Notes under the pieces: generated by a model | What the model was told of the DNA's origin: nothing | Database searches by the model: none | Seen by the model: only the letters and a program-made list of their open reading frames with translations | Made by a program: the position numbers and the translations under genes | Assembly: GCF_013389595.1 (NCBI RefSeq) | Contig: NZ_CP058306.1 | Span: 2,852,001 to 2,916,000 of the forward strand | Origin: Flavobacterium sp. I3-2 | GTDB lineage: Bacteria; Bacteroidota; Bacteroidia; Flavobacteriales; Flavobacteriaceae | Length of the DNA: 64,000 nt | Direction: 5' to 3' | Shown here: piece by piece, positions 9,117-59,258 of the stretch | How the letters are laid out: every line of letters starts with the position of its first letter | Numbering within the stretch: position 1 is the stretch's first letter

Positions 9117-9336
9117 TCGACGCAGTCTAAATACGGTCTAAAGGGTTTCGAACGCTAAATCAAAAGAACTCACTTCGTTTCAAATACAAGCCTTATGCTA
9201 TATATGATTCTTTAATACAGAAAGTGAAAGGCACCGTATTCATGAGAACGAAAACAAATATTAACGCTCGAATAAACACCTTTTGATTTTACGCTTTTCT
9301 CAACTTTTAGACTCTCGTATTTATACTGTATGTCGA
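9117..9336 (+). repeat. Long hairpin repeat A, stem type 1, with element B in its loop
   Basis: The 5' arm (CGACGCAGTCTAAATACGG, then CGCTAAATCAAAAG) pairs with the 3' arm (CTTTTGATTTTACG, then TTTTAGACTCTCGTATTTATACTG and TGTCG). The hairpin loop is occupied by element B at 9182-9275. The arms stay complementary although their loop holds a foreign element. Confidence 0.75.
9182..9275 (+). repeat. Mobile-like element B, copy 1
   Basis: This copy begins AAATACAAGCC and ends GCTCGAATAA. It lies inside the loop of an A hairpin. The internal TATTCATGAG ... CTCGAATA stem is present. At 94 nt it is slightly longer than the 90 nt of most copies. Confidence 0.75.
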
Positions 9337-9685
9337 GTTTGCGATTCTGCGGAATATTTAATTTCATTTTCAAATCTTCAAATCAACTCATTTTCAAATT
9401 CTATTCCCGATTCCCTACTCCTTATTATACTTACTCACCTCGTTACCAGCCACCTCGTCACTCGTTACCTATTACTTGTCACTAATTACAAATTCACTTA
9501 CCTTATAACTTTAGTACCTTCTAACCTAATCCTCATTTTCAAATTTAAAAATCCCAAGCTCCCTAATCTCAAAACATCCTTTCGACTATATTCGTTTAAG
9601 TTATCGATAAAAAAAATCAAATTACTTTATTAAAATAACTAAAGTTTACTTTCTTTGCTTTTAGAAAACAAAAAGCATGCATTTG
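9337..9685. repeat. Repeat-derived spacer before the OmpR-type operon
   Basis: This is low-complexity DNA (CATTTTCAAAT and CTTACCTTATAAC phrases, short CTCGTTACC-like repeats at about 9435-9480) with no credible gene. The last 60 nt must contain the promoter of the regulator gene that follows. Confidence 0.45.
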
Positions 9686-10396
9686 ATGAAAAAAATTCTT
9701 TTAGTTGAAGACGAATCTAGTGTAGTTTCATTTATTAAGAAAGGTTTACAAGAATTGGGTTATGAAATCTCAGTAGCTTTTGATGGTCAAACTGCACTTA
9801 AAATGGTTCATACGCATCATTTTGATTTGATTATTTTAGACATTATGCTTCCAGATATTAATGGTTTACAAGTCTGCAAAGAAATCAGAGAAAATAATAA
9901 AACAATTCCTATTTTATTTTTGACTGCCTTAGGATCGTCAGAAAATATTGTGATTGGTTTAGAAAGTGGCGGAGACGATTATTTAGTAAAACCTTTTAAA
10001 TTTGTTGAACTTGTAGCAAGAATTAAATCGTTGATTAGAAGAACGCATCATGTGATTGGTACAAATGAAGAAGATTTAATTGACAATAAATACATTTACA
10101 AATTTGACGACTTAACTGTAAATGATTACTATAAAAAAGTAACCCGAGAGGGACTTGAAATAAATTTAACTTCGACAGAATATAAGCTTTTAATGTATTT
10201 TTTACAGAATCCTGGTAAAGTAATATCTCGAACAGAAATATTGGATGCCGTTTGGGGAGTTAATTATGATTTAGGTACAAACGTAGTTGATGTTTATGTA
10301 AACTATTTAAGAAAAAAATTAGATTTTGGAAAAGAAAAACGCATTATTCATACGGTAATTGGTATGGGATATGTTTTAAAAACAGCTCATGATTAA
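9686..10396 (+). CDS. OmpR/PhoB-family response regulator (236 aa)
   Basis: I prefer the ATG at 9686 (MKKILLVEDES), which puts the first receiver strand at residue 3 as is usual. The ATG at 9677 would add MHL. The receiver domain has E8-D9 and the phospho-acceptor Asp in LIILDIMLPD (residue 52 from this start). The C-terminal winged helix runs from NDYYKKVTREGLEINLTSTEYKLLMYFLQNPGKVISRTEILDAVWG to the end. The stop overlaps the kinase start by 8 nt, so they are an operon and cognate pair. Confidence 0.93.
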   Translation: MKKILLVEDESSVVSFIKKGLQELGYEISVAFDGQTALKMVHTHHFDLIILDIMLPDINGLQVCKEIRENNKTIPILFLTALGSSENIVIGLESGGDDYLVKPFKFVELVARIKSLIRRTHHVIGTNEEDLIDNKYIYKFDDLTVNDYYKKVTREGLEINLTSTEYKLLMYFLQNPGKVISRTEILDAVWGVNYDLGTNVVDVYVNYLRKKLDFGKEKRIIHTVIGMGYVLKTAHD

Positions 10397-11768
10397 ATTT
10401 AAATCAACACAAATAAAAACCATGTTGATGTTGACGATTGCTTCATCAACCATATTATTCATTTTTAGTTTTTTAGTTTACTTTTCTATTGTTCGGTTTT
10501 CTCACGAACGTTTTTATGAATTATTAAAAATTAGAATTGAAACGCTTATTTTATCAAACAATCAATTTCCAACAAACTTTGAAAACATTGTAAATGAAAT
10601 CATTGGTAAGTCAGAACTTCCAGAAGAAAAAGACTATATATTACAGATACAAAATAAAAAACAATTAGAAAATATTGAAAAAATCATAGATGCTCCTAAT
10701 CATTTTTTTAATGAAGTTTATAAAAAAGAATACGCAACTTTTAATAATGATACTTATTCTTTTGTAGCTAAACGTTTTTTATTTGATAACAAGGAATATA
10801 TAGCAGTTGTTAAGGCTGAAAATGTATATGTTGTTTATTATTTAAATTATTTAGAAAAAACCTTATTGATATGCTTGTTATTAGCTTTGTTTTTTTCGGC
10901 TATATTTTCATTTTATCTATCTAAAACACTTTATAAACCAATTGGAGTTATCACTAAAAAAGTAAAGCAAATTAGCACCGAAAATTTACACTTACGATTA
11001 GCTAATGAAAATTACAACAAAGAATTAAGTGATTTGATTGATACATTTAACGATATGCTTAATCGATTAGAAACTTCTTTTGAAACACAAAATTACTTAA
11101 TTGGAAATGTATCGCATGAATTAAGAACTCCACTGACTTCAATTATGGGCGAAGCAGAGGTTTCACTTGCTTTAGAAAGAGATAAAGAGAGTTATAAACA
11201 AACTTTAGGAATTGTATTAAACGAAGCCGAAAAGTTAGATAAAAAGTTAAATGCACTTTTATTAATAGCCCAAACTGGATTTAATGGTAAAATTCAAAAA
11301 ATGGATTTAACTCGTACAGACCAATTGCTTTGGGATGTAATTGAAACTTTAAAACGTTTAAATAATAAAAATAATATTGTTGTTGACTTAAGTATGATAC
11401 CTGATAATCCTAAAAAATTAAAGGTAAAAGGCAACGAGCAATTGCTACACTTAGCACTTTCTAATATTATTAGTAATGCTTGTAAATATTCAAATTACCA
11501 ACAAGTCAAGGTTGCTTTAGGAGCTACAAATACACATGTCTATATTATTGTGAAAGATGACGGAATAGGTATACCCGAAAAGGATATGAATAAAATTTAC
11601 GATCCGTTTTTTAGAGCCTCTAATACGCAAAATTATGAAGGTTATGGTATTGGTTTACCTCTTGCCAAAAACATCATTCAAATGCATAATGGTGAAGTGA
11701 TTGTAAATTCTGTAGTTAAAAAAGGAACAACTGTAGAAATTAAAATTCCGACGATACAAGAATTTTAA
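10389..11768 (+). CDS. HAMP-containing sensor histidine kinase (459 aa)
   Basis: The order is a membrane helix (residues about 11-33), a periplasmic domain to about 153, a second helix (TLLICLLLALFFSAIFSFYL), a HAMP region, then HisKA with NVSHELRTPLTSIMGEAE. The ATPase domain follows with NIISNACKYS (N box), DDGIGIP (G1), FFRASN (F box) and GYGIGLPLAKNI (G2). All catalytic boxes are intact. The roughly 120-residue periplasmic domain has no motif I recognise. Its regulator is immediately upstream, and the UspA-like and DUF1275 genes follow. Confidence 0.93.
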   Translation: MIKFKSTQIKTMLMLTIASSTILFIFSFLVYFSIVRFSHERFYELLKIRIETLILSNNQFPTNFENIVNEIIGKSELPEEKDYILQIQNKKQLENIEKIIDAPNHFFNEVYKKEYATFNNDTYSFVAKRFLFDNKEYIAVVKAENVYVVYYLNYLEKTLLICLLLALFFSAIFSFYLSKTLYKPIGVITKKVKQISTENLHLRLANENYNKELSDLIDTFNDMLNRLETSFETQNYLIGNVSHELRTPLTSIMGEAEVSLALERDKESYKQTLGIVLNEAEKLDKKLNALLLIAQTGFNGKIQKMDLTRTDQLLWDVIETLKRLNNKNNIVVDLSMIPDNPKKLKVKGNEQLLHLALSNIISNACKYSNYQQVKVALGATNTHVYIIVKDDGIGIPEKDMNKIYDPFFRASNTQNYEGYGIGLPLAKNIIQMHNGEVIVNSVVKKGTTVEIKIPTIQEF

Positions 11769-11771
11769 TCT

Positions 11772-11825
11772 CATTTTAATTTCTATAATAGCATTTTAAT
11801 TTCATTTAAATAATATTCTAATTTC
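11772..11825 (+). promoter_or_regulatory. Three direct repeats TTTAATTTC-type, candidate OmpR-class operator
   Basis: CATTTTAATTTC occurs at 11772-11783 and 11792-11803, and ATTCTAATTTC at 11815-11825. Their ends are spaced 20 and 22 nt apart, about two helical turns each. They lie 40-95 nt before the UspA-like start and directly after an OmpR-type system. The repeat spacing is seen; binding by the regulator is inferred. Confidence 0.4.
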
Positions 11826-11865
11826 ACGAACATAGCTTTGTCTTCATAATAAATAACACATAAAA

Positions 11866-12357
11866 ATGAAGACAAAAAATATTTTAATTCCAACAGATTT
11901 TTCATTAGAATCTTTAAACATTGTAAAAACTCTTTTATCCGAAGCTGTATCTAAACAACTTGAAGAAACTTACCATATTGTGTTTATTACAGGTTATGAT
12001 AAAGGCGATTCTATTCGTGACCTTTTATTTCAGTCTGACGCTTCGATTATTCAAAAGCTAAAAACTAACGAATTTAATGAAGCGCTAGGTATTTTAAAAA
12101 ATAAATATGCCAAGTATTTTATAAGTTCAAAATTTATACTTTACAACGGATATTTTCAATCGCGTTTTAATCAAGTTATATCTTGTAATAAAATTGACGA
12201 AATTTATTTTAGTGCTACCAAACCCAAAAGTACTTTAAAAAATATTTTCTGCTTGAATAAAAATATTAAAAAATGTGAATTACCAAAATATGAAATTCAA
12301 ATAGAAACGCCTATAAAATCATTTGAAAAAGAGAGACTTGCAGGTTTCTTTTCATAA
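11866..12357 (+). CDS. UspA-like protein (163 aa)
   Basis: The N-terminus MKTKNILIPTDFSLESLNIVKTLLSEA is the usual opening of a universal-stress-protein fold, with the I-P-T-D-F-S motif. The second half (YNGYFQSRFNQVISCNKIDEIYFSATKPK) lacks a clear G-x2-G-x9-G(S/T) ATP-binding loop, so it may be a non-ATP-binding or degenerate member. It sits between the kinase and the DUF1275 gene in the same orientation, 97 nt after the kinase. Confidence 0.6.
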   Translation: MKTKNILIPTDFSLESLNIVKTLLSEAVSKQLEETYHIVFITGYDKGDSIRDLLFQSDASIIQKLKTNEFNEALGILKNKYAKYFISSKFILYNGYFQSRFNQVISCNKIDEIYFSATKPKSTLKNIFCLNKNIKKCELPKYEIQIETPIKSFEKERLAGFFS

Positions 12358-12369
12358 TATTTTAATCTT

Positions 12370-13188
12370 ATGTTAAGAAAATTTAGTACAAGTAGAACTT
12401 TATCAGACAATATAAAATTAGGTGGTCTTACTGCATTTACTGCCGGTACTATAAATATTGCATCGTTAATAATATTTTTGAATTTCACTTCAAATATCAC
12501 AGGACATTATGCCATATTATCTGCAGAAATAAGTAAGGGAAACTGGGGGCAAGTTGGCGTTGTAGCTCTTTGGATAATTTTATTTTTTCTTGGTAATTTT
12601 TTATCGAATTTAATTGTAATTAATGTAACTAAATTCAACCAATATCTTGCACATGCCTTGCCATTGGTTTTGGAAATCATATGCTTAATCTTTGTTGGTT
12701 ATTATGGTAATAAATATTATAGTGGTCAACAAAATCAAACGGAATTACTTGTTGCTTTGATGCTTTTCTCAACCGGATTACAAAATGGCTTAACAGCTAG
12801 TATTTCAAATTTTGCTATTAAAACAACGCATCTTACAGGTACCACTACAGATTTAGGTATATTATTTTCGATGTTTACAATGAAAAAATATCGAAAAAAC
12901 AAAGCACTTGTAAGTAGAGCCAAAGTACTTTTAGTTATAGTTATATCTTATTTATTAGGTGCTATATTTGCAGGTATTTTTTATCATTACTTTAAATTTT
13001 ACATATTTTATCTCATTTCTGTTTGTTTACTAGTTGTTATAGTTTACGATTTTTATAAGATTTATGCTCGACATTTCAGTACAGAATTTAGATATCATAA
13101 AATATACAAAAGGAATGATCCAATAGTTTTGTTTCTTATTAGGTTTAAACAACAAAACAATACTACTCAAACTATATTTAAATCTTAA
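12370..13188 (+). CDS. DUF1275 (YoaK-like) family membrane protein (272 aa)
   Basis: About six membrane helices are visible. The family-typical pattern is NITGHYAILSAE, a helix with LFFLGNFLSNLIV, then FSTGLQNGLTASIS, ...TTHLTGTTTDLGILFSM and a helix with YLLGAIFAGIFYHY. The TTHLTGTxTDLG motif is characteristic of DUF1275. The start is 12 nt after the UspA-like stop, so the two are probably co-transcribed. The family's substrate is unknown to me. Confidence 0.85.
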   Translation: MLRKFSTSRTLSDNIKLGGLTAFTAGTINIASLIIFLNFTSNITGHYAILSAEISKGNWGQVGVVALWIILFFLGNFLSNLIVINVTKFNQYLAHALPLVLEIICLIFVGYYGNKYYSGQQNQTELLVALMLFSTGLQNGLTASISNFAIKTTHLTGTTTDLGILFSMFTMKKYRKNKALVSRAKVLLVIVISYLLGAIFAGIFYHYFKFYIFYLISVCLLVVIVYDFYKIYARHFSTEFRYHKIYKRNDPIVLFLIRFKQQNNTTQTIFKS

Positions 13189-13226
13189 AAAAAAATCAAC
13201 TTATTAATTTAAGTTGATTTTTTTTA
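13189..13226 (+). terminator. Rho-independent terminator after the DUF1275 gene
   Basis: AAAATCAACTT (13192-13202) pairs perfectly with AAGTTGATTTT (13211-13221) across an 8-nt loop, and T residues follow to 13225. It begins directly after the stop codon. Confidence 0.8.
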
Positions 13227-13591
13227 AAAAATTATAAATTAAATACCATTCTTAAGATTTCAAGCCTTAGGTTATATACCGCATTTTAATCGGAATATCA
13301 TTTTCAAATTAAATATTCATTTTAAGCTTTAGGCAATAGGCTGTATACCGTGTTTTTAATCAGAATATGATTTCAAATCTTTAAATTTTCAAATTCGTTT
13401 TCCGATTCTCTTTTTCCCTATTCTCTATTTCAATGAACTTGTTTTGATTGTACTAAATATTCTATTTTGTCAAACTTGACTTGGAAAGCATCGCATCTAG
13501 TTTTCAAGAGTTTGTAATGGTTTTAATAGTACGTTTTAGATTGTTACATTTTGCTTTAACTTTTGGCTTGATCCAAAAGTTACAAAAGATC

Positions 13592-14313: not shown

Positions 14314-14464
14314 TTTGCGATTCTACTGAATATTTAATTTCATTTTCAAATTTTCAAATTATTACATTTTCAAATTGAATTCCCGATTCTCTATTTCCTT
14401 ATTCCCTATTCTAATGAACGTTTTTGCTTGTACTCAATAATCTATTCTGCGGAATATTTAATTT

Positions 14465-30144: not shown

Positions 30145-30157
30145 TTTTTTTTTCCTG

Positions 30158-30176
30158 CAAGGTTTTCAAAACCTTG
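30158..30176. repeat. Palindromic repeat CAAGGTTTTCAAAACCTTG, copy 1
   Basis: This perfect 19-nt palindrome lies next to the SusC leader hairpin. A second identical copy lies at 31707-31725 in the same relative position to leader copy 2. Confidence 0.7.
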
Positions 30177-30366
30177 TAGGTATATGATTTTATTTGATTT
30201 TTATGTTCAAATTCTAAAGTTTACAATAATTATGTTTTTAATTCATTTTGTTCATTTTGCCTTAATACAGCATTTGTTTTTTTGAGTTGTTTTGGTTTTA
30301 ATAGTACGTTTTAGATTGTTACATTTTGCTTTAACTTTTGGCTTGATCCAAAAGTTACAAAAAATC
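30177..30366. repeat. Spacer joining the SusC leader to repeat DNA
   Basis: No gene was seen. The first 110 nt, with TTTACAATAATTATGTTTTTAATT, recur after leader copy 2 (31726-31810). The rest is the upstream part of a stem-type-3 A repeat, identical to that in the 583-bp duplication. Confidence 0.5.
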
Positions 30367-30505
30367 AAGACTGCAAAAAGAAATTCTAAAAATGCGCGCA
30401 TTTTGCTAAATCATTTGAATCTTGCTTTTTCAAAGCTTCAGTCAGCCAAATGATTTTTTACGCAATAAGCTTCATTTTCTTAACGTATTTCTTTTTGATG
30501 TCGGG
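30367..30505 (+). repeat. Long hairpin repeat A, stem type 3
   Basis: This copy is nearly identical to those at 13592-13730 and 14175-14313, about 16.8 kb away. Small differences include GATTTTTTACGCAATAAGC in the 3' arm. Confidence 0.75.
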
Positions 30506-30699
30506 TTTCGATTCTACTGAATATTAAGTTAATCATTTTAATGAACGTAATTTTATTCTGCTGAAAATGCTATTAATACATTTTCAAATTCAATTCCCGA
30601 TTCTCTTTTCCCGATTCTCTATTTCCTATTCTCTTTTCCCTATTACCTATTACAATGAACGTTTTTAACAGTACTAAATATTCTATTTCGTCATGCTGC

Positions 30700-30740
30700 A
30701 CTGGTTACTGAGCTTCGTCGAAGTACAGCATCGCATCTAG
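30700..30740. repeat. REP-like palindrome nested in a TGCTGCA repeat
   Basis: The phrase TGCTGCACTTGATGCTGCATCGCA, seen at about 34303-34326 and 58120-58140, is here interrupted by ACTGAGCTTCGTCGAAGTA. This is of the same 'CTTCGTCGAAG' type as the repeats at 32411 and 51008. Confidence 0.55.
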
Positions 30741-30864
30741 TTTTTCAAGTGTTTATTTTAGATTTATAATTCTATTTGTTCTTTTACCTCTTCTTTGTTA
30801 TTTTTAAATTAGGGAGTCGGTGAACCTTCGGTTTGGATTACCCCCAAAAGAAACAAAAGGGGTT

Positions 30865-31084
30865 TTCGACGCAGTATTTTAACGATCTACTACGGCTTAT
30901 TTCTAAAAGTAACCAAATACAAGCCTTAATGACTTAGCTTTTTAAAATACACGTGTAAGGCGTAGTATTCATGAGAAACTTGAAAAAATATTAACACTCG
31001 AATAAACTTGCTTCGCTTCGGACAGAGGTTACTTTTTTACGAAATTGCACCTTGTAGATTCTCGTCAAAATTCTGTATGTCGGG
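30865..31084 (+). repeat. Long hairpin repeat A, stem type 2, with element B between the arms
   Basis: The 5' arm CGACGCAGTATTTTAACGA ... AAAAGTAACC pairs with GGTTACTTTT ... TCTCGTCAAAATTCTG ... GTCGGG. Element B (30915-31005) separates AAGTAACC from the conserved apical CTTGCTTCGCTTCGGACAG. Confidence 0.75.
30915..31005 (+). repeat. Mobile-like element B, copy 2
   Basis: It begins AAATACAAGCCTTAATGACTT and ends CACTCGAATAA. In the uninterrupted copy at 34425-34554 the same junction reads AACCAGACTTGC. Here it reads AACC-B-ACTTGC, so B takes the place of AG. Confidence 0.8.
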
Positions 31085-31226
31085 TTTACGATTCTACTTA
31101 ATAATTTAAACTGCTTTTTCAAAGGGTTTTGATTCTACCTTCTGACTACATTTGGTTATTATAGTACGTATTACAATTTCTTATCTTTTTTCTTCTTCTT
31201 TAAATGCACTAAAGAAGCAAAGTGCT

Positions 31227-31452
31227 CCGACGCAGTCTAAATACGGTCTAAAGGGTTTCGAACGCTAAATCAATAAGATCTTACTTTTTCAAAGCTTCAA
31301 ATACAAGCCTTAATGACTTGGGCTATTCAGACTGAGCGTGTAAGGCGCAGTATTCATGAGAACAAAAACAAATATTAACGCTTGAATAGTCAGCTCATTG
31401 ATTTTACGCTTTTCTCAACTTTTAGACTCTCGCATTTATACTGTATGTCGGG
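31227..31452 (+). repeat. Long hairpin repeat A, stem type 1, with element B in its loop
   Basis: The inner arms AAATCAATAAG and CTCATTGATTT pair, although they differ from other type-1 arms (AAATCAAAAAG/CTTTTTGATTT) at positions on both sides. The loop carries B at 31299-31388. Confidence 0.75.
31299..31388 (+). repeat. Mobile-like element B, copy 3
   Basis: It is 90 nt long, beginning AAATACAAGCC and ending GCTTGAATA. The left flank is AAAGCTTC and the right flank GTCAGC, the two halves of the A apical loop. Confidence 0.8.
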
Positions 31453-31659
31453 TTTGCGATTCTACTGAATAGAATATTTATTTTCATTTTTAAATCTTCA
31501 AACTTTCAAATTTGGTTCTCTGTTCCCCATTCTCATTTCCCTAAATAAAATCTACCAAACCGCGACTTTCGAAATGAAAAATTACCTATCTATTATGAAT
31601 AATGAAAATTCTGTGATTTGGTTATTTTGCTTGTTTTAATCAGTTAATTAATATTTATC

Positions 31660-31693
31660 TCCCTGATGCAAGCGCCAACTTTACTCAGAGGGA
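31660..31693 (-). ncRNA. Conserved SusC-type leader hairpin, copy 2 (orphan)
   Basis: The same hairpin and loop as at 30111-30144, without a SusC gene behind it. It is followed by the same CAAGGTTTTCAAAACCTTG palindrome (31707-31725). Confidence 0.45.
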
Positions 31694-32056
31694 TTTTTTT
31701 TTCCTGCAAGGTTTTCAAAACCTTGTAGGTATATGATTTTATTTGATTTTTATGTTCAAATTCTAGAGTTTACAATAATTATGTTTTTAATTCATTTTGA
31801 TTATTTTTATTTGATGTAGTATTTGTTTTTTTGAGTTGCTTTGGTTTTAATAGTACATTTTAGATTCTTATATTTTATCTTCTAACTTTTACCTCCTCTT
31901 TGCTATTTTTAAATTTAAAGAGTCGGTGAACCTGCGGTTTGCCTTGATGCAAAAGTTACAAAAATTACTCATCGTTATTATTTGTTTTAGTATTCGTGAA
32001 TCTTCGAGGTTTTTACTTTCCTACTTAAAATAAAACAAAATTTACCTCTCGATTTC

Positions 32057-32282
32057 AAGACTGCAAATAGAAATACTAAAAATGCGCACATTTTTCTAAA
32101 TCATTTGAAAACTTGCTTTTTCAAAGCTTCAAATACAAGCCTTAATGACTTAGCTATTTACACTGAAAGTGTAAGGCGCTGTATTCATGAGAACCAAAAC
32201 AAATATAAACGCTCGAATAAACAGCTTTTGATTTTACGCTTTTCTCAACTTTTAGACTCTCGCATTTATACTGTACGTCAGG
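32057..32282 (+). repeat. Mosaic A repeat: 5' half type 3, element B, 3' half type 1
   Basis: The left half (GACTGCAAATAGAAATAC ... AAATCATTTG) is of stem type 3 and the right half (CTTTTGATTTTACG ... TTTTAGACTCTCGCATTTATACTG) is of stem type 1. The two halves no longer match well. Element B lies at the junction, at 32131-32220. Confidence 0.7.
32131..32220 (+). repeat. Mobile-like element B, copy 4
   Basis: It is 90 nt, from AAATACAAGCC to GCTCGAATAA. Internal TTACACT/AGTGTAA and TATTCATGAG/CTCGAATA stems are both present. Confidence 0.8.
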
Positions 32283-32410
32283 TTTCGATTCTACTTAATA
32301 ATTTAAACTGCTTTTTCAAATTTTCAAATCTTTCAAATCTTTAAATTTTGAAATTCGATTCCCGATTCTCTTTTCCTTATTCCCTATTACATTGAACGTT
32401 TTTGATTGAA

Positions 32411-32451
32411 CAAAGATTCTTCGACTTCGTTTCACTGCGCTCAGAATGACA
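32411..32451 (+). repeat. REP-like repeat, intact copy used as reference for the IS110 target
   Basis: CAAAGATTCTTCGACTTCG, then TTTCACTGCGCTCAGAATGAC. The same sequence at 34670-34709 is interrupted by the IS110 element after AGAATG. Confidence 0.8.
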
Positions 32452-32540
32452 GTATATTTCAAATTCAATTCCCCATTCTCTATTTCCCTATTCTCTTTTC
32501 CTTATTCCAACGATTTTCATATCTTTCAAAAAATAAAAAG

Positions 32541-33659
32541 TTAATCTGTGATGTTCTTTAAATTCAATTCATAGCTTGTACTTCTACCACCGGATATTGA
32601 TTTTAGTAAAATATTTTTTTTGAGTAAATCATTTATATCCCTTAGGGCTGTATCTGTTGATACTTTATTTATTTTTGCCCATTTAGTTGTGTTTAATTTA
32701 CCTTCAAAACCGTCTAACATCATGGTTATTATTTTCTTTTGTCGTTCATTTTCTATCCTACTTCCAAATAAACGGTAAAAATGATGCTTTTGTATTACTT
32801 TAGTTAAAATTTGCTCTGCGTTTTCTATAGCCAGTAATAAGTTATCACAGAACCAAAGTAGCCATTTTGTTATGTCTTGATCGCCTTTTTGGGTATGTTC
32901 TAAAACTTCGTAATACTCTTTTCTATTTTGACGAATTTGCGAAGACATACTATAAAACCTTTTGTTATTACCATCAGCTTTGGTTAGAATCATATCTCCT
33001 AAAGTTCTTGCTATACGTCCATTACCATCATCGAAAGGATGAATGGTGACAAACCAAAAATGAGCAATTGCCGCTTTAAGAACCGTATCTAAATTTTGCT
33101 GTTCATTAAACCATTTCAAAAAATCTCTCATTTCATTAGATACATTTTTAGAATCTGGTGCTTGAAAATGTATATTTTCTCTTCCTAATGGTCCAGAAAC
33201 AACTTGCATTGGTCCATCAATATCTTCGCGCCATTGAGCGACTTGAATTTTATACATACCACTTCTACCTGTTGGGAAGAGCGCAGCATGCCAATTAAAC
33301 AATCTCTCTTCTGTTAATGGAAGTAAGGCATTATTTACGGCATCTATCATCATTTCCACTACACCATCCACATTTCTATCTGATGGAATAAGTCCGGATA
33401 TATCAAGTCCTAATCTTCGAGCTATTGATGACCTTACCTGATCTTTATCTAATTGTTCACCTTCTATAGCTGATGATTTTATGACATCTTCTGTCAATGT
33501 TAACAGATTAGCTTCTTCTTTGAGATCAAATCCTAGAATCTCCAGCTTACCCACTAACTTTCCTTGCACATTTCTAACATGAGCTAGTTTATGAATAAGT
33601 ACATCGTTATCCCATATAAAATGCGTCCAGTTTTTTAATTGATGAATGTATATTGCCAT
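32541..33659 (-). CDS. Fic/DOC protein with N-terminal DUF4172 and C-terminal winged helix (372 aa)
   Basis: I start at the ATG at 33659 (MAIYIHQLKNW). The frame opening at 33716 runs through the operator palindromes. The N-terminus is DUF4172-like. KSSAIEGEQL (S62-x3-E66-G67) fits the (S/T)xxxE(G/N) inhibitory helix of class II Fic enzymes. HPFDDGNGRIAR (H207) is the complete Fic active site for AMP transfer. The C-terminus (KIITMMLDGFEGKLNTTKWAKINKVSTDTALRDINDLLKKNILL) is a winged helix that could bind the two palindromes upstream. The enzyme looks active but self-inhibited. Confidence 0.92.
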   Translation of the reverse strand: MAIYIHQLKNWTHFIWDNDVLIHKLAHVRNVQGKLVGKLEILGFDLKEEANLLTLTEDVIKSSAIEGEQLDKDQVRSSIARRLGLDISGLIPSDRNVDGVVEMMIDAVNNALLPLTEERLFNWHAALFPTGRSGMYKIQVAQWREDIDGPMQVVSGPLGRENIHFQAPDSKNVSNEMRDFLKWFNEQQNLDTVLKAAIAHFWFVTIHPFDDGNGRIARTLGDMILTKADGNNKRFYSMSSQIRQNRKEYYEVLEHTQKGDQDITKWLLWFCDNLLLAIENAEQILTKVIQKHHFYRLFGSRIENERQKKIITMMLDGFEGKLNTTKWAKINKVSTDTALRDINDLLKKNILLKSISGGRSTSYELNLKNITD

Positions 33660-33673
33660 GGTATTGATTTTTA

Positions 33674-33702
33674 TGCAGTAAATATAACTATTATTTACCG
33701 CA
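33674..33702. promoter_or_regulatory. 29-bp palindromic operator of the Fic gene, proximal
   Basis: The 29-bp inverted repeat has arms TGCxGTAAATA and TATTTACxGCA. It lies 15 nt upstream of the Fic start codon. The centre is 34 nt from that of the distal palindrome. Confidence 0.6.
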
Positions 33703-33707
33703 CAATA

Positions 33708-33736
33708 TGCGGTCATTAAAACTATTATTCACCGCA
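33708..33736. promoter_or_regulatory. 29-bp palindromic operator of the Fic gene, distal
   Basis: The arms TGCGGT and ACCGCA enclose a spacer with AATAATAGTT, which is shared with the proximal site, so the two are also direct repeats. Identical 29-bp length supports a dimeric repressor. Confidence 0.6.
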
Positions 33737-33826
33737 TTTTTATTTTCTATAGAAAGAAAATACGTTTTCATAGCTTATATCCCTTTTTTAAGAAACTCCA
33801 GCTAATAGCTTTATTTTTTTTTCTTT

Positions 33827-33909
33827 TACGTAGTTTTTTAAACTACATAACTGCAAAATTAGCACGTACGTTAGGGGTACGGTTAGTGCTGTAAAAGTAA
33901 TTTTTTCAT
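33827..33909 (-). pseudogene. Duplicate fragment of the SusC gene 5' end (signal-peptide region)
   Basis: The 83 nt match codons 1-27 of the SusC gene at 30065 with few changes (for example TTACTTTTACAGCACTAACC and AGCACGTACGTTAGGGGTAC on the opposite strand). One A is missing in the ATGAAAAAA run, which shifts the frame. The adjacent leader with its hairpin (33955-33988) is duplicated too. The rest of the transporter is absent. Confidence 0.75.
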
Positions 33910-33954
33910 GATTTTGTGATGTTAGTTAATAATTCGAGTTGATTAATATTTATC

Positions 33955-33988
33955 TCCCTGATGCGAGCGCCAACTTTACTCAGGGGGA
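33955..33988 (-). ncRNA. Conserved SusC-type leader hairpin, copy 3
   Basis: The hairpin arms and loop are the same as in copies 1 and 2, located upstream of the SusC 5' fragment at 33827-33909. The distance from hairpin to ATG is 45-46 nt here and in copy 1. Confidence 0.5.
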
Positions 33989-34051
33989 TTTTTTTATTTT
34001 TATGTCTTTTTCCTTTTCTTTTTTAAGCACCAAAAAGAAAGAAAAAGTGCT

Positions 34052-34187
34052 CCGACGCAGTCTAAATACGGTCTAAAGGGTTTCGAACGCTAAATCAATA
34101 AGATCTTGCTTTTTCAAAGCTTCGGTCAGCTCATTGATTTTACGCTTTTCTCAACTTTTAGACTCTCGCATTTATACTGTATGTCGA
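34052..34187 (+). repeat. Long hairpin repeat A, stem type 1, uninterrupted
   Basis: The 5' arm CCGACGCAGTCTAAATACGG ... CTAAATCAATAAG pairs with CTCATTGATTTTACG ... TTTTAGACTCTCGCATTTATACTG ... GTCG. The apical loop CTTGCTTTTTCAAAGCTTCGGTCAG is intact, so this is the reference form of type 1. Confidence 0.8.
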
Positions 34188-34424
34188 GTTTACGATTCTA
34201 CTGAATATTTTATTACATTTTCAAATTGAAGTCCCGATTCTCTTTTTCCCTATTCCCTATTACAATGAACGTTTTTGTTTGTACTTCATATTCTATTTTG
34301 TCATGCTGCACTTGATGCTGCATCGCATCTAGTTTTCAAGAGTTTGTTTTGTTTTAATAGTACATTTAAATTTTTGTATTTTACTTTTTCCTTTTTGAAG
34401 CACCAAAAAGAAAGAAAAAGTGCT

Positions 34425-34554
34425 TCGACTCAGTATTTTAACGATCTACTACGGTTTATTTCTAAAAGTAACCAGACTTGCTTCGCTTCGAACAGAGGTT
34501 ACTTTTTTACGAAATTGCACCTTGCAGATTCTCGTCAAAATTCTGTATGTCGGG
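34425..34554 (+). repeat. Long hairpin repeat A, stem type 2, uninterrupted
   Basis: CGACTCAGTATTTTAACGA ... AAAAGTAACC pairs with GGTTACTTTT ... CTCGTCAAAATTCTG ... GTCGGG. The apical loop is AGACTTGCTTCGCTTCGAACAGA. This is the reference form of type 2. Confidence 0.8.
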
Positions 34555-34732
34555 TTTCGATTCTGCGGAAGATTTAATTTCATTTTCAAATTTTCAAATC
34601 AACTCATTTTCAAATTCAATTCCCGATTCTCTATTTCATATTTTCTATTACAATGAACGTTTTTGTTTGTACAAAGATTCTTCGACTCCGTTTCACTGCG
34701 CTCAGAATGTTCTGTGTTTCTATGCAACTATT

Positions 34733-35686
34733 TTAACAATAATTTTCTTGATATTTACCATTCGCTTTAGCTATTGCAAACGCTTGTTTTAATAGTTTGT
34801 TTGCAATAGCTATTTTAATTACTCTTTCTGGTTTTCCAAGGCTTTTCAATCTGTCGTACATTTCTTTACAAGTTTTGTTACAATGTTTAGCTGACCAACT
34901 GCACATATAAAGCAACTTTCTGATTTGTGCTTTACCCATTTTACAAATATGTCCTTTTCCCTTTACACTGGTTCCACTTTGATATATTCTGGGACTAAAC
35001 CCTACATAAGCGATGAGCTGTTTATAATTCTCAAACTTCTTGAAGTTATCGGTTATCAAAGATAGCATCATTGCGGTTTTTCTACCTATGCCTGGAATAC
35101 TCTCAATATTCTCGATAGTCTGACCGTATTGCTGTTTTGCTAATCGTTCCATTTCTACTTCGATTTTATGTTTGGTTTTTTCAAGATTGGAAAGATCTTT
35201 TTTTATAGTCTTTTCTAAAAATTTGTCTAACGAACCACTGCTTTCAAAGGCTTCTAATTGGCGTTTGTTTTGTTGGATTTGTTTATTTAACAGTTCAACT
35301 CGTGTGTATAAATGTCGAAGCTTCGTACAATTTTCACTTTCTTGTTCCCACTGTTTCAAGTCATACTTTTCACCATATTCGGCTATTGTTCTTGCGTCTT
35401 TTTTGTCCGTTTTAGCACGATAAAGCATTGTCTGACTAAAACGCTTGATCACCAAAGGATTTTCTACACAAACTTTAATATTCCGACTGCTTAAAAAAGT
35501 AGCTAATGGGAAATAATAACTGCCCGAAGCCTCCATAACAACCCAATCTACTTGTTCTATCAAATTTAACAACTGTTTAAATCCTTTTTCTTCATTAGGA
35601 AAAACAAAATAATCCCATCGTTCTTTTCGCTTAAAACTTACATCAAAAGTTTGTTTGCTAATGTCAATTCCAATAATTTTACACAT
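34733..35686 (-). CDS. IS110-family transposase (317 aa)
   Basis: MCKIIGIDISKQTFDVSF carries the first aspartate of the RuvC-like DEDD catalytic domain, and VVMEASGSYYFPLATFL, VENPLVIKRFSQTMLYRAKTDKKDARTIAEYG carry the others. The C-terminal Transposase_20 domain (IENIESIPGIGRKTAMMLSLI ... FSPRIYQSGTSVKGKGHICKMGKAQIRKLLYMCSWSA) contains the serine-bearing region typical of the family. The gene is intact and full length, so the element may still be active. Confidence 0.93.
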   Translation of the reverse strand: MCKIIGIDISKQTFDVSFKRKERWDYFVFPNEEKGFKQLLNLIEQVDWVVMEASGSYYFPLATFLSSRNIKVCVENPLVIKRFSQTMLYRAKTDKKDARTIAEYGEKYDLKQWEQESENCTKLRHLYTRVELLNKQIQQNKRQLEAFESSGSLDKFLEKTIKKDLSNLEKTKHKIEVEMERLAKQQYGQTIENIESIPGIGRKTAMMLSLITDNFKKFENYKQLIAYVGFSPRIYQSGTSVKGKGHICKMGKAQIRKLLYMCSWSAKHCNKTCKEMYDRLKSLGKPERVIKIAIANKLLKQAFAIAKANGKYQENYC

Positions 35687-35904
35687 ACATAAAATGTTTT
35701 ATCAGAAAAGAAATTACTACACTAATTTACCTATTCTAAATACAGGCTTTATAACCTAATGTTCTGTCCAAATTTTGTAGTAAGGGTAAAGGAACTAACA
35801 TTCTGAACGGTCTTATATGACAAATGACAATCAATAGTCTTACTTCTTTACCCTTTCTTTTCTTTCTCGATTTACAATATTTAAAAATAACTATTTGCAA
35901 ACAT
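35687..35904 (-). ncRNA. Candidate bridge-RNA region of the IS110 element
   Basis: IS110 elements encode a structured bridge RNA in their long non-coding end, which specifies target and donor DNA. This 218-nt end contains TCAGAATGTT on the minus strand (35797-35806). The same ten bases occur at the left junction (34702-34711), and eight of them match the intact target. The region is established for the family; the guide assignment is inferred. Confidence 0.5.
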
Positions 35905-35963
35905 AGAATGACAGTATATTTCAAATTCAATTCCCTAATCCCAATTTCCCAAAAAGAGCTTCA

Positions 35964-36031
35964 GTACACAGTTAATCCGTCTCAAACTAGAACCTAGCGG
36001 GTTAAACTTAATTTTTATCATAACTGTGTAC
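35964..36031. repeat. 68-nt structure with perfect 11-bp inverted repeat
   Basis: GTACACAGTTA (35964-35974) is the exact complement of TAACTGTGTAC (36021-36031). The 46-nt interior contains CTAGAACCTAG. It resembles a very small MITE or an excised-element scar. No coding capacity. Confidence 0.55.
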
Positions 36032-36502
36032 CTGACTCTTAACTAACAAAATAAAAAATATTAAAAGTGTTTTTAATTTTTAGTCTTTAGCTTTTAGTTA
36101 TTAGTTTAGAATATTTTGTTTCTATTCCCCATTCCCCATTCCCCATTCCCTAAAAAAACTCCCGAACCACGACTTTTTAATAAAATATAAAACCTACTAT
36201 GAAAAGAATTTTTTGCGTGGTTCGATTGTTTTAACATTAATAAACTAATTCTAATAAAAATGATTTTCTTTTACTTAATGTGGGTTGAAAACGCAGGCTC
36301 CTAACTTTCTGATATAGCAAAGAGGCTTGCTGTGTGTGTGTTTTTTATTTTTCTGAATGGTCGCCAAACTTATTCTAATTCTATTCGTTTTTAAAATTAC
36401 CTATCAATGAACGTTTTTTGTTTGTACTGAATAATCTATTCTGCGAAACATTTTAATTTCATACTTTTCTTTTATGACTAAAAGAAACAAAAGTCTTTTT
36501 TT
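36032..36502. repeat. Spacer of composite repeat DNA
   Basis: No gene was seen. It holds TTCCCCATTCCC heptamers at about 36124-36152. A 9-bp inverted repeat CGAACCACG/CGTGGTTCG encloses about 50 nt (about 36164-36224), with a diverged relative near 31556-31612. Spacer phrases such as TGAACGTTTTTTGTTTGTACT also occur. Confidence 0.45.
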
Positions 36503-36624
36503 ACGGCTACCTCTATCAGGATCAAACCTCAGTTTACTCACTATCTTTTTGAATCGTTGCAAGCAACTCAAAAAGATTACGCTCGTTTCACTGGTTTGAT
36601 GCTCCTGTTAGAGCTAAATGCCGT
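36503..36624 (+). repeat. Long hairpin with a stem sequence unlike types 1-3
   Basis: ACGGC, CTCTA, CAGGA and CAAACC pair in order with GGTTTG, TCCTG, TAGAG and GCCGT. The inner ATCTTTTTGA/TCAAAAAGAT stem is perfect, and the apex is GTTGC-AA-GCAAC. Flanking phrases (AAAAGAAACAAAAG before, TTTATTTCTGCT after) are like those of A repeats, so this may be another stem type with a different apical loop. Confidence 0.65.
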
Positions 36625-36849
36625 TTATTTCTGCTATATATTGTATTTATTCTTTCAATGAACGTTTTGTTTGTAGTTAATATTCTATTTTGTAGTTATA
36701 AACTTGGTTACTTCGTCACTTCGTTACTTGGTTACTTCGTACAATTCGCAAGATTGGGTCAGTATCGTATCTTATTTTTTGTTTTCGTTTTAAAGTAGAA
36801 TTGTAATTCTTTATTTTATTTCTTTTTCTTTAAATGCACTAAAGAAAAC
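36625..36849. repeat. Spacer with CTTSGTYA octamer array
   Basis: An array of CTTGGTTA/CTTCGTCA/CTTCGTTA units lies at about 36710-36756. No gene was seen. Confidence 0.55.
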
Positions 36850-36939
36850 AAATACAAGCCTTTATGACTTGACTATTTACACTGAACGTGTAAGGCGCAG
36901 TATTCATGAGATCGAAAACAAATATTAACACTCGAATAA
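36850..36939 (+). repeat. Mobile-like element B, copy 5
   Basis: It is 90 nt, from AAATACAAGCC to CACTCGAATAA. The flanks are CACTAAAGAAAAC on the left and TCAGCTTTTTGATTTTACG on the right. Confidence 0.8.
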
Positions 36940-37003
36940 TCAGCTTTTTGATTTTACGCTTTTCTCAACTTTTAGACACTCGCATTTTGACTGTATGTCG
37001 GGG
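36940..37003 (+). repeat. Remnant 3' arm of an A repeat (type 1) next to element B
   Basis: TCAGCTTTTTGATTTTACG ... TTTTAGACACTCGCATTTTGACTG ... GTCGGGG is the 3' half of a type-1 hairpin. The 5' arm is missing. The position it should occupy holds element B, directly joined to the upstream CACTAAAGAA phrase. Confidence 0.7.
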
Positions 37004-37159
37004 TTTCGATTCTGCTGAATATTGATTTTCTTCTTTCAATGAAGCTGATATATACTACTAAATATTATAACTTGGATCCGGATTTAAATTCGTTCCGTTC
37101 GGACTTTGTCCTCGGGTGCGGATTTGGTTATTTTCTTTTGGATTACCCCCAAAAGAAAC

Positions 37160-37249
37160 ACATACAAGCCTTAATGACTTGATTATTTACACTGAACGTG
37201 TAAGGCGCAGTATTCATGAGAACCAAAACAAATATTAACGCTCGAATAA
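37160..37249 (+). repeat. Mobile-like element B, copy 6
   Basis: It is 90 nt, here starting ACATACAAGCC and ending GCTCGAATAA. It lies inside the phrase CCCCCAAAAGAA-B-AAAGGGG, which is uninterrupted at 37632-37655. That phrase itself forms a CCCC/GGGG hairpin. Confidence 0.8.
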
Positions 37250-37258
37250 AAGGGGTTT

Positions 37259-37388
37259 CCGACGCAGTATTTTAACGATCTACTACGGCTTATTTCTAAA
37301 AGCAACCGGTCTTGCTTCGCTTCGGTCAGCGGTTGCTTTTTTAAGAAATTTCACCTTGCAGATTCTCGTCAAAATCCTGTATGTCGGG
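37259..37388 (+). repeat. Long hairpin repeat A, stem type 2 (CAACCG variant)
   Basis: CCGACGCAGTATTTTAACGA ... AAAAGCAACCG pairs with CGGTTGCTTTT ... CTCGTCAAAATCCTG ... GTCGG. Compared with AAAAGTAACC/GGTTACTTTT at 34425, both sides of the stem changed together. Confidence 0.8.
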
Positions 37389-37658
37389 GTTTCGATTCTG
37401 CAAAATAGGTTGTGAATACTTTTTTTAGTCCGTTTATTTTATTTGTAATAAATAGTTTACTTATAATTCCATTTACTATTTCTCTATTCCCTAATTCCCT
37501 ATTTCAATGAACGTGTTCTGTTTGTAGTTAATATTCAATTTTGTAGTTACAAACTTGGTTACTTCGTATAGTTCGCAAGATCGGGTCAGTATCACATTAA
37601 GTTTTTTGATTCTTATATTATTCTTTTGGATTACCCCCAAAAGAACCAAAAGGGGTTT
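37389..37658. repeat. Repeat-derived spacer between two A hairpins
   Basis: No gene was seen. It contains the TGAACGTG ... TAATATTCAATTTTGTAGTT lead-in, a short CTTGGTTACTTCGTA octamer remnant at about 37553-37568, and the CCCCCAAAAGAACCAAAAGGGG hairpin. Confidence 0.5.
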
Positions 37659-37788
37659 CCGACGCAGTATTTTAACGATCTACTACGGCTTATTTCTAAA
37701 AGCAACCGGTCTTGCTTCGCTTCGGTCAGCGATTGCTTTTTTAAGAAATTTCACCTTGCAGATTCTCGTTAAAATTCTGTATGTCGGG
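37659..37788 (+). repeat. Long hairpin repeat A, stem type 2 (CAACCG variant)
   Basis: Nearly identical to the copy at 37259-37388, offset by 400 nt. The outer arm reads CTCGTTAAAATTCTG, giving a better match to CAGTATTTTAACGA. Confidence 0.8.
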
Positions 37789-37868
37789 TTTACGTTTCTG
37801 CTGAATATTGTGTTTTGTTTTTCAATGAACGTGTTTTATTTGTACTTAATATTCTATTTTGTAGTTCT

Positions 37869-37913
37869 AAACTTGGTTACTCGGTCACTACGTCACTTGG
37901 ACACTTGGTTACT
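37869..37913. repeat. CTTSGTYA octamer array
   Basis: Units ACTTGGTT, ACTCGGTC, ACTACGTC, ACTTGGAC and ACTTGGTT follow each other in register. Similar arrays lie at 36710, 38571, 58492, 59882 and 59974, always after the phrase TTTTGTAGTTNTAAACT. Confidence 0.7.
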
Positions 37914-38244
37914 ATATACGCTTTGTTTCTACTGAATATACTATTTTAAACCTTAAACTTTAAACCTAGAACATATAATCATTTCATTTTCAAATCTTCA
38001 AATTATCACATTTTCCCAATTCCCTATTCCCCATTCCCTATTCCTTAAAATGCAGATTCGCTTTGTTTCTACTGAATATTGATTCCTTTCTTTCAATTGA
38101 CATATTTTGTTTTAACTTGATTCTATTATGTCATTCTGCACTTGATGAAGTATCTCATTTGTTTTCTTAGGATTACTTTGGTTTCAATAGTGAGAATTGA
38201 GTTTTGTATTGGTTTTCTTCTTCTTTAAAAGCACTAAAGAAGAC
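37914..38244. repeat. Spacer of short A/T-rich phrases
   Basis: No gene was seen. The phrase TGAATATACTATTTTNAACCTTAAACTT occurs here and twice more (38651, 38803), and CCCTATTCCCCATTCCC-type heptamers occur at about 38016-38045. Confidence 0.45.
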
Positions 38245-38334
38245 AAATACAAGCCTTAATGACTTGACCATTTACACTGGAAGTCTATGGCGTCGTATTC
38301 ATGAGATCCAAAACAAATATTAACTCTCGAATAA
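38245..38334 (+). repeat. Mobile-like element B, copy 7
   Basis: It is 90 nt, from AAATACAAGCC to CTCTCGAATAA. It lies in GCACTAAAGAAGAC-B-AGTGC, the loop of a small GCAC/GTGC hairpin upstream of an A repeat. Confidence 0.8.
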
Positions 38335-38339
38335 AGTGC

Positions 38340-38476
38340 TTCGACGCAGTATTTTAACGATCTACTACGGCTTATTTCTAAAAGGAACTGGTCTTGCTTT
38401 TTCAAAGTATCGGTCAGCAGTTCCTTTCTTACGAAATTTCACCTTGCAGATTCTCGTCAAAATCCTGTATGTCGGG
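38340..38476 (+). repeat. Long hairpin repeat A, stem type 2 (GGAACTG variant)
   Basis: AAAAGGAACTG pairs with CAGTTCCTTT, and the outer arms pair as in other type-2 copies. The apical loop is CTTGCTTTTTCAAAGTATCGGTCAG, the form otherwise seen in types 1 and 3, so loop and stem combine freely. Confidence 0.8.
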
Positions 38477-38570
38477 TTTACGTATCTGCTGAATATTGTG
38501 TTTTGTTTTTCAATGAACGTGTTTTATTTGTACTTAATATTCCATTTTGTAGTTATAAACTTGGTCACTT

Positions 38571-52169: not shown

Positions 52170-52186
52170 TTTTTTTGATTAATATA

Positions 52187-53161: not shown

Positions 53162-53166
53162 TATGT

Positions 53167-57594: not shown

Positions 57595-58180
57595 AAAATA
57601 ATAATGTTTTTCAGGTAAAAATATTATTATTAATTAACAAAACGTATTTTTTTAGATTAAAAAACTAATTTAAAGTTATAATGCATGAAATTTTAAAGAT
57701 GAATAATGAATATTAAGGAATAAAAGGTGAAAATACAATTACATGATAAATAATTCACTTTAAAAATTGATTCATTGAAAAAAACACGTTTAAATTGTAG
57801 ATTAAAAAAACTAAATATTAAAATATTGAACAACAAATAACATTAGTAAATATTCAAAAAAATCTTTAACTTATAACATTTTCAAATTAAATGTCTGCAT
57901 TAAGCAATAGGCTTTATGTTGAGTTCTAAATCATATTATTGTTTTAAAGTTCAACTCCCTATTTTCCCATTCTTTTTTCCTTTTTAGGCTATAGGCTGTA
58001 TGCTTTAAGCTGAGTTCTAAGTCGAAATATCGTTTTAAAGTTCTATTCCCGATTCTCTTTTCCCGATTCTCTATTCCAATGAACGTTTTTGTTAGTACTT
58101 CAAATTCTATTATATCATGCTGCACTTGATGCAGTATCGCATCTTGTTTTTTTCTTTTCTTTAAAAGCACTAAAGAAAAC
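57595..58180. repeat. AT-rich spacer leading into repeat DNA
   Basis: The first 280 nt are AT-rich and should hold the promoter of the 975-aa gene. From 57880 on there are TAGGCTTTATG-type short units, TTCCCGATTCTC phrases and the TGCTGCACTTGATGCAGTATCGCA phrase. No gene was seen. Confidence 0.5.
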
Positions 58181-58271
58181 AAATACAAGCCTAAATGACT
58201 TATTTTTTCAAACTGAGCGTATAAGGCGTAGTATTCATGAGAAACTAAAACAAATATTAACGCTTGAATAA
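58181..58271 (+). repeat. Mobile-like element B, copy 8
   Basis: AAATACAAGCC to GCTTGAATAA. The left flank is GCACTAAAGAAAAC and the right flank AAGGGGTTTCCGACGCAG. The flanks come from two different small hairpins (GCAC and GGGG types), so this copy sits at a mosaic junction. Confidence 0.75.
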
Positions 58272-58280
58272 AAGGGGTTT

Positions 58281-58410
58281 CCGACGCAGTATTTTAACGA
58301 TCTACTACGGCTTATTTCTAAAAACAACCGATCTTGCTTCGCTTCGGTCAGCGGTTGCTTTCTTACGAAATTTCACCTTGCAGATTCTCGTCAATATACT
58401 GTATGTCGGG
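58281..58410 (+). repeat. Long hairpin repeat A, stem type 2 (CAACCG variant)
   Basis: AAAACAACCG faces CGGTTGCTTTC. The outer arm CTCGTCAATATACTG gives a fuller match to CAGTATTTTAACGA than in other copies. Confidence 0.75.
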
Positions 58411-58662
58411 TTTACGATTCTGCTGAATATTGTGTTTTGTTTTTCAATGAACGTAGTTTGTTTCTACTTAATATTCTATTTTGTAGTTCTAAACTTGGTT
58501 ACTTCGTCACTTCGTTACTTGATTACTTGGTTACTTCGTCACTACGTCACTTGGTTACTTGGTTACTTGGTACAGTTCGCAAGCTCGGGTTAGCATCATA
58601 TTAAGTTTTTTGATTCTTATATTATTCTTTTGGATTACCCCCAAAAGAACCAAAAGGGGTTT
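58411..58662. repeat. Spacer with CTTSGTYA octamer array
   Basis: Ten in-register octamers lie at about 58492-58575, after the phrase TTTTGTAGTTCTAAACT. The CCCCCAAAAGAACCAAAAGGGG small hairpin precedes the next A repeat. No gene was seen. Confidence 0.65.
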
Positions 58663-58800
58663 CCGACGCAGTCTAAATACGGTCTAAATGGTTTCGAACG
58701 CTAAATCAAAAAGGTCTTGTTTTTTCAAAACTTCAGTCAGCTTTTTGATTTTACGCTTTTCTCAACTTTTAGACACTCGCATTTTGACTGTATGTCGGGG
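58663..58800 (+). repeat. Long hairpin repeat A, stem type 1, uninterrupted
   Basis: CTAAATCAAAAAGG pairs with CTTTTTGATTTTACG, and AGTCTAAATACGG pairs with the TTTTAGACACTCGCATTTTGACTG side. The apical loop reads CTTGTTTTTTCAAAACTTCAGTCAG, in which the small stem changed on both sides. Confidence 0.8.
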
Positions 58801-58938
58801 TTTCGATTCTACTAAATAGGTTATAAATGCTTTTTTTGTTCCGTTTTTTATAGCATCTTGTTTTTTGTATACTGGTTTAATAGTGCGAATTGTAATTCTT
58901 TATTTTATTTCTTCTTCTTTAAATGCACTAAAGAAGAC

Positions 58939-59028
58939 AAATACAAGCCTTTATGACTTGACTATTTACACTGAACGCGTAAGGCGCAGTATTCATGAGA
59001 ACAAAAAAAAATATAAACGCTCGAATAA
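58939..59028 (+). repeat. Mobile-like element B, copy 9
   Basis: It is 90 nt. It lies in GCACTAAAGAAGAC-B-AGTGC, the loop of a GCAC/GTGC hairpin that is uninterrupted at 59385-59405. Confidence 0.8.
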
Positions 59029-59034
59029 AGTGCT

Positions 59035-59258
59035 CCGACGCAGTATTTTAACGATCTACTACGGCTTATTTCTAAAAGGAACTGGTCTTGCCTTTTCAAA
59101 GCTTCAAATACAAGCCTTTATGACTTGATTAATTACACTGAGCGCGTAAGGCGACGTATTCATGAGAACTAAAACAAATATTTTCGCTCGAATAATCAGC
59201 AGTTCCTTTCTTACGAAATTTCACCTTGCAGATTTTCGTTAAAATCCTGTATGTCGGG
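59035..59258 (+). repeat. Long hairpin repeat A, stem type 2 (GGAACTG variant), with element B in its loop
   Basis: AAAAGGAACTG pairs with CAGTTCCTTT across an apical loop that holds B at 59106-59195. The uninterrupted form of the same variant is at 38340-38476. Confidence 0.8.
59106..59195 (+). repeat. Mobile-like element B, copy 10
   Basis: It is 90 nt, between AAAGCTTC and TCAGCAGTTCC. In the uninterrupted relative the junction reads AAAGTATCGGTCAGC, so B again stands in place of two bases. Confidence 0.8.

Follow-up and report, generated by a model that had tools for sequence, protein, structure and literature searches.

A short non-coding module at three fixed positions of a composite folded repeat in Flavobacterium sp. 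I3-2

Short inserts are found at a fixed place within larger palindromic or structured elements in ERIC/NEMIS-type repeats, Rickettsia palindromic elements and the intervening sequences of 23S rRNA, and the insertion sequence (IS) IS1397 inserts in the loop of a palindrome. IS1397, ISKpn1, IS621, ISPa11, ISPpu9 and ISPpu10 are described as insertion sequences that target the palindromes of REP (repetitive extragenic palindromic) and BIME (bacterial interspersed mosaic element) repeats (PMC1525189), and REPs and REPINs as short non-coding intergenic hairpin elements mobilized by the transposase RAYT (PMC6006769). Here we describe B, a module of about 90 nt that lies within a family of larger repeats, the A-units, in a window of 64,000 nt from Flavobacterium sp. 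I3-2 (contig NZ_CP058306.1, positions 2,852,001 to 2,916,000 of the forward strand). Like the REP/BIME-targeting elements, B appears to be a mobile element highly selective for repeated palindromic DNA, and like the REPs and REPINs it is short, intergenic, hairpin-forming and probably moved in trans. It differs from the former in that it is only about 90 nt long and geneless, occupies three sites within a far larger unit and stands in place of two bases. It differs from the latter in that no RAYT adjoins it, the Y1 gene of the genome has another palindrome and no GTAG-type tag was noticed at its end, although none was looked for, and from the fixed-place inserts in its use of three positions and several host types. 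No description of A-units or B was found in the open-licence PMC literature. We favor, at a probability of roughly 55%, the interpretation that B, small and without coding capacity, is mobile but non-autonomous, and that it targets an unpaired C followed by two purines (C-RR) in folded repeats.

The host of B is a single composite unit, in which a 5′ pseudoknot-like hairpin element is followed by a long imperfect hairpin on the 3′ side. The 5′ part comprises a hairpin S1 (e.g. TAACTTTTGG-CTTGAT-CCAAAAGTTA), then CAAAA, and then ATCAAG, which is complementary to the S1 loop; this has the layout of a predicted H-type pseudoknot. The initial annotation of the window had listed small CCCC..GGGG and GCAC..GTGC hairpins, and these correspond to the second stem of the same layout. 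At least 10 S1/S2 combinations with both helices complementary were recognized by eye in the window genome and its relatives, from a pattern list that includes many chance matches (in the larger segment 93 on the plus and 62 on the minus strand, against 31-48 in five shuffles). The tip of the long hairpin has the conserved form stem - RR - (A/T)CTTGC ... GCTTC - RR - (A/T)CAGC - stem. The sequence of the stem distinguishes types A1, A2 and A3, and the unpaired motifs stay the same.

All 28 copies of B in the genome lie at one of three positions of the A-unit, with constant orientation relative to it. Two of these positions are the unpaired purine pairs near the tip, and the third is the A-rich linker after the 5′ hairpin. 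Classified by their left flanks, six copies are in the pseudoknot linker, ten at the 5′ RR of the tip and 12 at the 3′ RR, and none of the 28 lies between units; these site assignments, and the calls of chimeric hosts below, were made by eye. The window genome has 42 A-unit tips, of which 20 contain B and 22 do not. The same placement recurs with varied host stems in several other genomes. Among 18 copies in relatives (17 matches less four weak ones, plus four from Paenimyroides tangerinum and one from a Myroides metagenome-assembled genome (MAG)), placement by eye puts ten at the pseudoknot position and six at the 3′ RR of the tip, an assignment that rests mainly on the right flank in L094 and L077; the remaining two, L095 and L039, are chimeric or unclear. 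In L081 and L082 the evidence for a second pseudoknot strand does not convince.

We have compared this placement with the supply of similar triplets nearby. Within 700 nt of B there are 25,901 bases, excluding B itself, and these contain 2,368 C-RR triplets on the two strands, of which about 111, a number set by hand, fall at the three A-unit positions. Were C-RR triplets chosen at random, the probability that 10 independent hits would all fall at those positions is about 1e-13, where the number of independent events is an estimate.

The census of B covers the whole genome, a single contig of 3.55 Mb, and a profile applied to fetched stretches recovered the identical 28 copies. They are clustered at 2.764 Mb, 2.861-2.922 Mb and 3.352-3.404 Mb, with 25 on the plus and three on the minus strand. 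A replication-strand bias was considered and rejected, the GC skew near the copies being mixed. Thirteen copies are 90 nt in length, 14 are 91 nt and one is 94 nt, and the base 5′ of B is C in all 28. Matches to an 11-mer with up to two mismatches occur at background level (35 observed, 30.7 expected). The full-length copies are not chance, because their BLAST E values to other copies run from 9e-17 to 9e-4 with a divergent query and reach 1.8e-33 with another. The copies at genome positions 2921014 and 2921660 (L068:5014, L068:5660) are 646 bp apart and identical in both 75-nt flanks, and constitute a tandem duplication of a B-bearing unit.

The ten copies in the window are all on the plus strand and lie where the initial annotation had placed them. 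Of the seven to which it had assigned hosts, all correctly, four are in A loops. Three of these are at the 3′ RR of the tip, at 9182..9275 (94 nt, an A3-type tip in short-loop form), 31299..31389 (91 nt, A3-type) and 59106..59195 (90 nt, A2-type), and one is at the 5′ RR of an A2-type tip at 30915..31005 (91 nt), where the host resembles the filled unit at genome position 3377200. The other three are in pseudoknots, at 37160..37249 (90 nt), where B separates S1 from the second strand of a CCCC/GGGG pseudoknot, and in the GCAC/GTGC linkers at 38245..38334 (90 nt) and 58939..59028 (90 nt, just upstream of the copy at 59106). The three copies that had been left unplaced prove to be chimeras, each joining the left flank of one host to the right flank of another: A1-type and A3-type at 32131..32220 (90 nt), GCAC pseudoknot and A3-type at 36850..36939 (90 nt), and GCAC and GGGG at 58181..58271 (91 nt). 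The common start AAATACAAGCC is present in nine of the ten, with ACATACAAGCC at 37160, and the common end CTCGAATAA in eight, with CTTGAATAG at 31299 and CTTGAATAA at 58181. Six copies are exactly 90 nt, rather than the seven counted earlier, three being 91 nt and one 94 nt.

B-free A-units occur in the same window. Long hairpins without B are found on the plus strand at 30380..30504 (A1, with the CTTGAT/ATCAAG pseudoknot just upstream), 34053..34190 (A3, with a GCAC/GTGC element just upstream) and 37657..37797 (A2, with a B-free CCCC/GGGG pseudoknot just upstream at about 37621-37656). When the joined flanks of each B copy were aligned to B-free copies from the window genome and some relatives, a B-free match spanning the junction was found for 25 of the 28 copies, with up to 97% identity. 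Among the best pairs are 3377200 with 3389825, where the empty site has AG (97% over 195), and 2889160 with 2889616, the copy at window 37160 and its partner near 37616 (97% over 144). They also include 2861182, the copy at window 9182, with 3376152 (95% over 212), and 2910939, the copy at window 58939, with a P. tangerinum site, L079 (94% over 189). The three copies lacking a spanning match, 2888850 (window 36850), 3401459 and 3391260, are all chimeras. In 15 of the 25 matches B stands exactly in place of two purines. The replacement of AG or GG noted initially thus holds, and extends to AA. An empty site with AG or GG thus differs from its filled counterpart by a change of two bases. In relatives a C / AA junction is common to filled and B-free loops, the latter read in G333, Paenimyroides viscosum and G285.

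In 20 diverse copies of B the 5′ hairpin, comprising an outer and an inner stem, is paired in 92.3% of cells. Three of the five pairs of the outer stem AATAC/GTATT are doubly changed, and none of 500 shuffles reaches its covariation score. The proposed stem GCCTTA/TAAGGC lies within this hairpin, whose covarying outer stem had not been listed. A second proposed stem, TTACAC/GTGTAA, is not kept among the copies, and a third, TATTC-GAG/CTC-GAATA, is conserved in sequence but has no support from covariation. This last, the 3′ stem, is paired in 88.8% of cells, yet 91 of 500 shuffles match it. The most conserved stretch of B is the tail from CATGAG to GAATAA, and the interior of the hairpin varies in length. 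We also observe that the minus-strand RNA folds more stably in 26 of 32 A-units of the window genome, 20 of 26 in other genomes and 22 of 25 B copies, for which base composition could be the cause; the fold z-scores of 23 B copies are -1.29 (minus) and -0.58 (plus).

The distribution among genomes bears on which of the two parts was inserted. One type of pseudoknot, sought as a pattern allowing one mismatch, was found in 17 of 395 genomes of the order, including the window genome, in 8 of 108 genera and four families; a reversed control had no matches in the list. In nine stretches from seven pseudoknot-positive genomes an A-like hairpin was seen by eye in eight, with L153 unclear, and the B model found nothing in the nine at E up to 1. 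Searched with the B model, the genus yielded matches in at least seven genomes out of 398 (E 0.01), including the window genome (G294 and G414 being weak), and the order in at least two out of 395 (E 0.001), namely the window genome and G037; these counts are lower bounds, set by stricter filters and about ten candidates scored per genome. The B tail is carried by named records of the Myroides MAG, P. viscosum and P. tangerinum. B-free A-units are the wider state. Since the pseudoknot part reaches other families and B is nearly confined to the genus, the insert is probably B. In G037 two 50-nt B-like elements (L155, L156) lie in a different repeat of another family, one of them within CCCTG..CAGGG arms, and we note that this element has a covarying outer stem of its own, AATTGC/GCAAT. 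The A-units are in themselves a structured repeat family with many S1/S2 combinations (several units at window 30332-38480; loci L146-L152 and L154), and arrays are present in another family.

The initial annotation had proposed that B inserts into single-stranded hairpin loops. The insert-like behavior, the sites that are unpaired in the folded layout, the similar empty sites and the varied host stems all agree with this. The sites, however, are three homologous positions of one type of unit and not loops generally, and therefore a sequence rule, C then RR, together with shared ancestry is also possible. Other observations weigh against a targeted mobile module. In a blind fold test on 39 distinct flank pairs from 46 loci, the best helix across the junction had a mean score of 15.3; the mean was 13.5 when flanks were re-paired and 12.7 at random positions. 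A score of at least 16 was reached by 15 of 39 flank pairs, by 20% of the re-paired controls and by 14% of the random ones. Paired flanks are thus favored, but the excess is only moderate, and many copies, chimeras included, show none; the concentration at three positions is far stronger. Ten of the 25 B-free matches are not clean two-base replacements. GAA corresponds to TC before B at 2921014 and 2921660, and AA corresponds to C at 2861182; the pseudoknot loops are of unequal length at 2910939, 2890245 and 2910181, and the matches are poor at 2883299, 2764345, 3377647 and 2884131. An empty site with AA, as in pseudoknots, is equally consistent with plain insertion and with duplication of 2 nt. 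The B-free sites are paralogous or come from another species, and are not strain-level presence/absence pairs. Without any transposition, B could be copied through homologous recombination between units that carry it, and no mobilizing enzyme was found, the Y1, reverse transcriptase and IS110 genes failing to track B in five B genomes and 21 controls.

Recombination is central to an alternative in which B is no longer mobile, having entered a few A-unit positions long ago and spread since as units were duplicated and as B-bearing units underwent homologous recombination or gene conversion. The genome does contain repeated units that are identical or nearly so, and nine of the 28 copies are chimeric (2884131, 2888850, 2910181, 3352435, 3359459, 3390317, 3391260, 3401459 and 3402339). 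Among the tips, five of 20 with B are chimeric and none of 22 without (one-sided P 0.018). At 3391260 the left side of a 5′ RR insertion is joined to the right side of a 3′ RR insertion, the product expected if two B copies within a single loop recombined, and such a double state is seen at 3377647 and 3377752. Conversion could also yield the change from GG or AG to AA at the borders of B. In P. tangerinum a pseudoknot copy (L079:688) and a tip copy (L079:3996) are 98% identical and their flanks differ. Overall, copies from one site class share an identity of 0.845 (74 pairs), and copies from different classes 0.846 (117 pairs). This is as expected for B moving between sites, and conversion inside B also fits. 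Separate first insertions at the pseudoknot and at the tip would still be required, in several lineages, at flanks that share only C-RR. Nor is there a difference in helix length, short helices being found in seven of 20 filled and five of 22 empty tips (P 0.30). We regard an immobile B as possible, but on the unlikely side.

A different explanation invokes selection instead of targeting. The A-unit might be a functional structured RNA, with B a peripheral domain tolerated where the core fold survives. The constancy of the unpaired motifs while the stems vary between types would be expected of such an RNA, and the covarying 5′ hairpin of B points the same way. So does a second module, D (about 48 nt, ACCTC..GTCGGTGAACC..GGT), which interrupts S1 within its 5′ arm; the junction (TTTT | D | TTGG or TTGCC) is constant in the nine distinct copies found, at window ~30790-30830 and ~31890-31940 and seven more places in the genome. 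Many hosts of B, however, are chimeras with mismatched arms, and the DNA between units, which selection on the fold would leave free, contains no B. Rfam 15 gave no match in the whole window at the gathering threshold, and only chance-level matches at a permissive threshold in three stretches (including 36700-38550, E up to 10). We consider that selection on a structured RNA is unlikely to account for the placement of B.

We have also sought an enzyme that might move B, comparing five B genomes with 21 control genomes of the genus in which a 60-genome search for the module had found none. Y1_Tnp was present in five of five B genomes and 16 of 21 controls, RVT_1 in three of five and 14 of 21, and the IS110 domain Transposase_20 (PF02371) in two of five and five of 21. 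Such co-occurrence is weak evidence either way, because there are only five B genomes. The Y1 result, together with the absence of terminal inverted repeats, the terminal hairpin and the fixed orientation of B, might suggest a non-autonomous element of IS200/IS605 or RAYT type, moved through single-stranded DNA by a Y1/HUH transposase. Of the hairpins expected near both ends of such elements, the one at the 5′ side of B is supported by covariation and the 3′ stem is not. However, no Y1/HUH transposase with ends matching B was found, and the surroundings of all 16 Y1 matches in the five B genomes (14 sources, covering 13 distinct stretches) contain no B. A fixed 5′ tetranucleotide with no loss of bases was not found; only the C is constant (28 of 28), and two purines are replaced in 15 of 25 cases. 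To our knowledge, IS200/IS605-type insertion does not leave a two-base loss. HUH transposition of B is not supported, and we think a Y1/HUH element very improbable.

The only Y1 gene found in the window genome (L076:9559-10116, at 771.6 kb) is flanked by palindromes of its own, CCTGCAAGGTTTT..AAAACCTTGTAGG, different from B. This gene may encode a RAYT that has a REP of its own, and similar palindromes occur at window ~30154-30181 and ~31703-31730. Three other candidates were rejected. In G027 the reverse transcriptase found on the same 4.3 kb contig as B adjoins a match to a group II intron, and such introns were recognized in the searched stretches of G027, G285 and G000. Five of the six IS110 copies in the window genome lie clearly within a different palindromic repeat, at CGCTCAGAATG | ACA; the six are near-identical, and one is at window ~34709-35906, with its gene at 34733-35686 on the minus strand. 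A DDE-type miniature inverted-repeat transposable element would not have the ends of B, as AAATACAAGCC and CTCGAATAA are not mutually inverted repeats.

For the targeted mobile module that we favor, the following mechanism can be envisaged. B begins with the 5′ hairpin, closed at its first bases by AATAC/GTATT, and a conserved tail of ~35 nt ending in CTCGAATAA follows. It would enter one way round, after C, at an RR left unpaired when the host folds as a single strand, and would replace the RR. The target would be single-stranded DNA or RNA, and an enzyme would act in trans. Duplication of units would multiply the copies further, and recombination between B copies would account for the chimeric hosts. 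A bolder proposal, which we consider unlikely, is that the A-unit, with its pseudoknot and long hairpin, is an undescribed structured RNA or single-stranded DNA element of the Flavobacteriales, and that B is a new kind of mini-element, recognized through its conserved 3′ tail, that enters unpaired purine pairs and swaps two bases in a folded nucleic acid and not in double-stranded DNA.

The analysis exposes the A-units as a structured repeat family across several families of the Flavobacteriales, with no Rfam match in the stretches searched. If B does enter unpaired positions of folded repeats, its junctions would provide natural before-and-after examples of target choice by secondary structure, made by a geneless element of 90 nt, and an unrecognized route of single-strand insertion would become directly testable.

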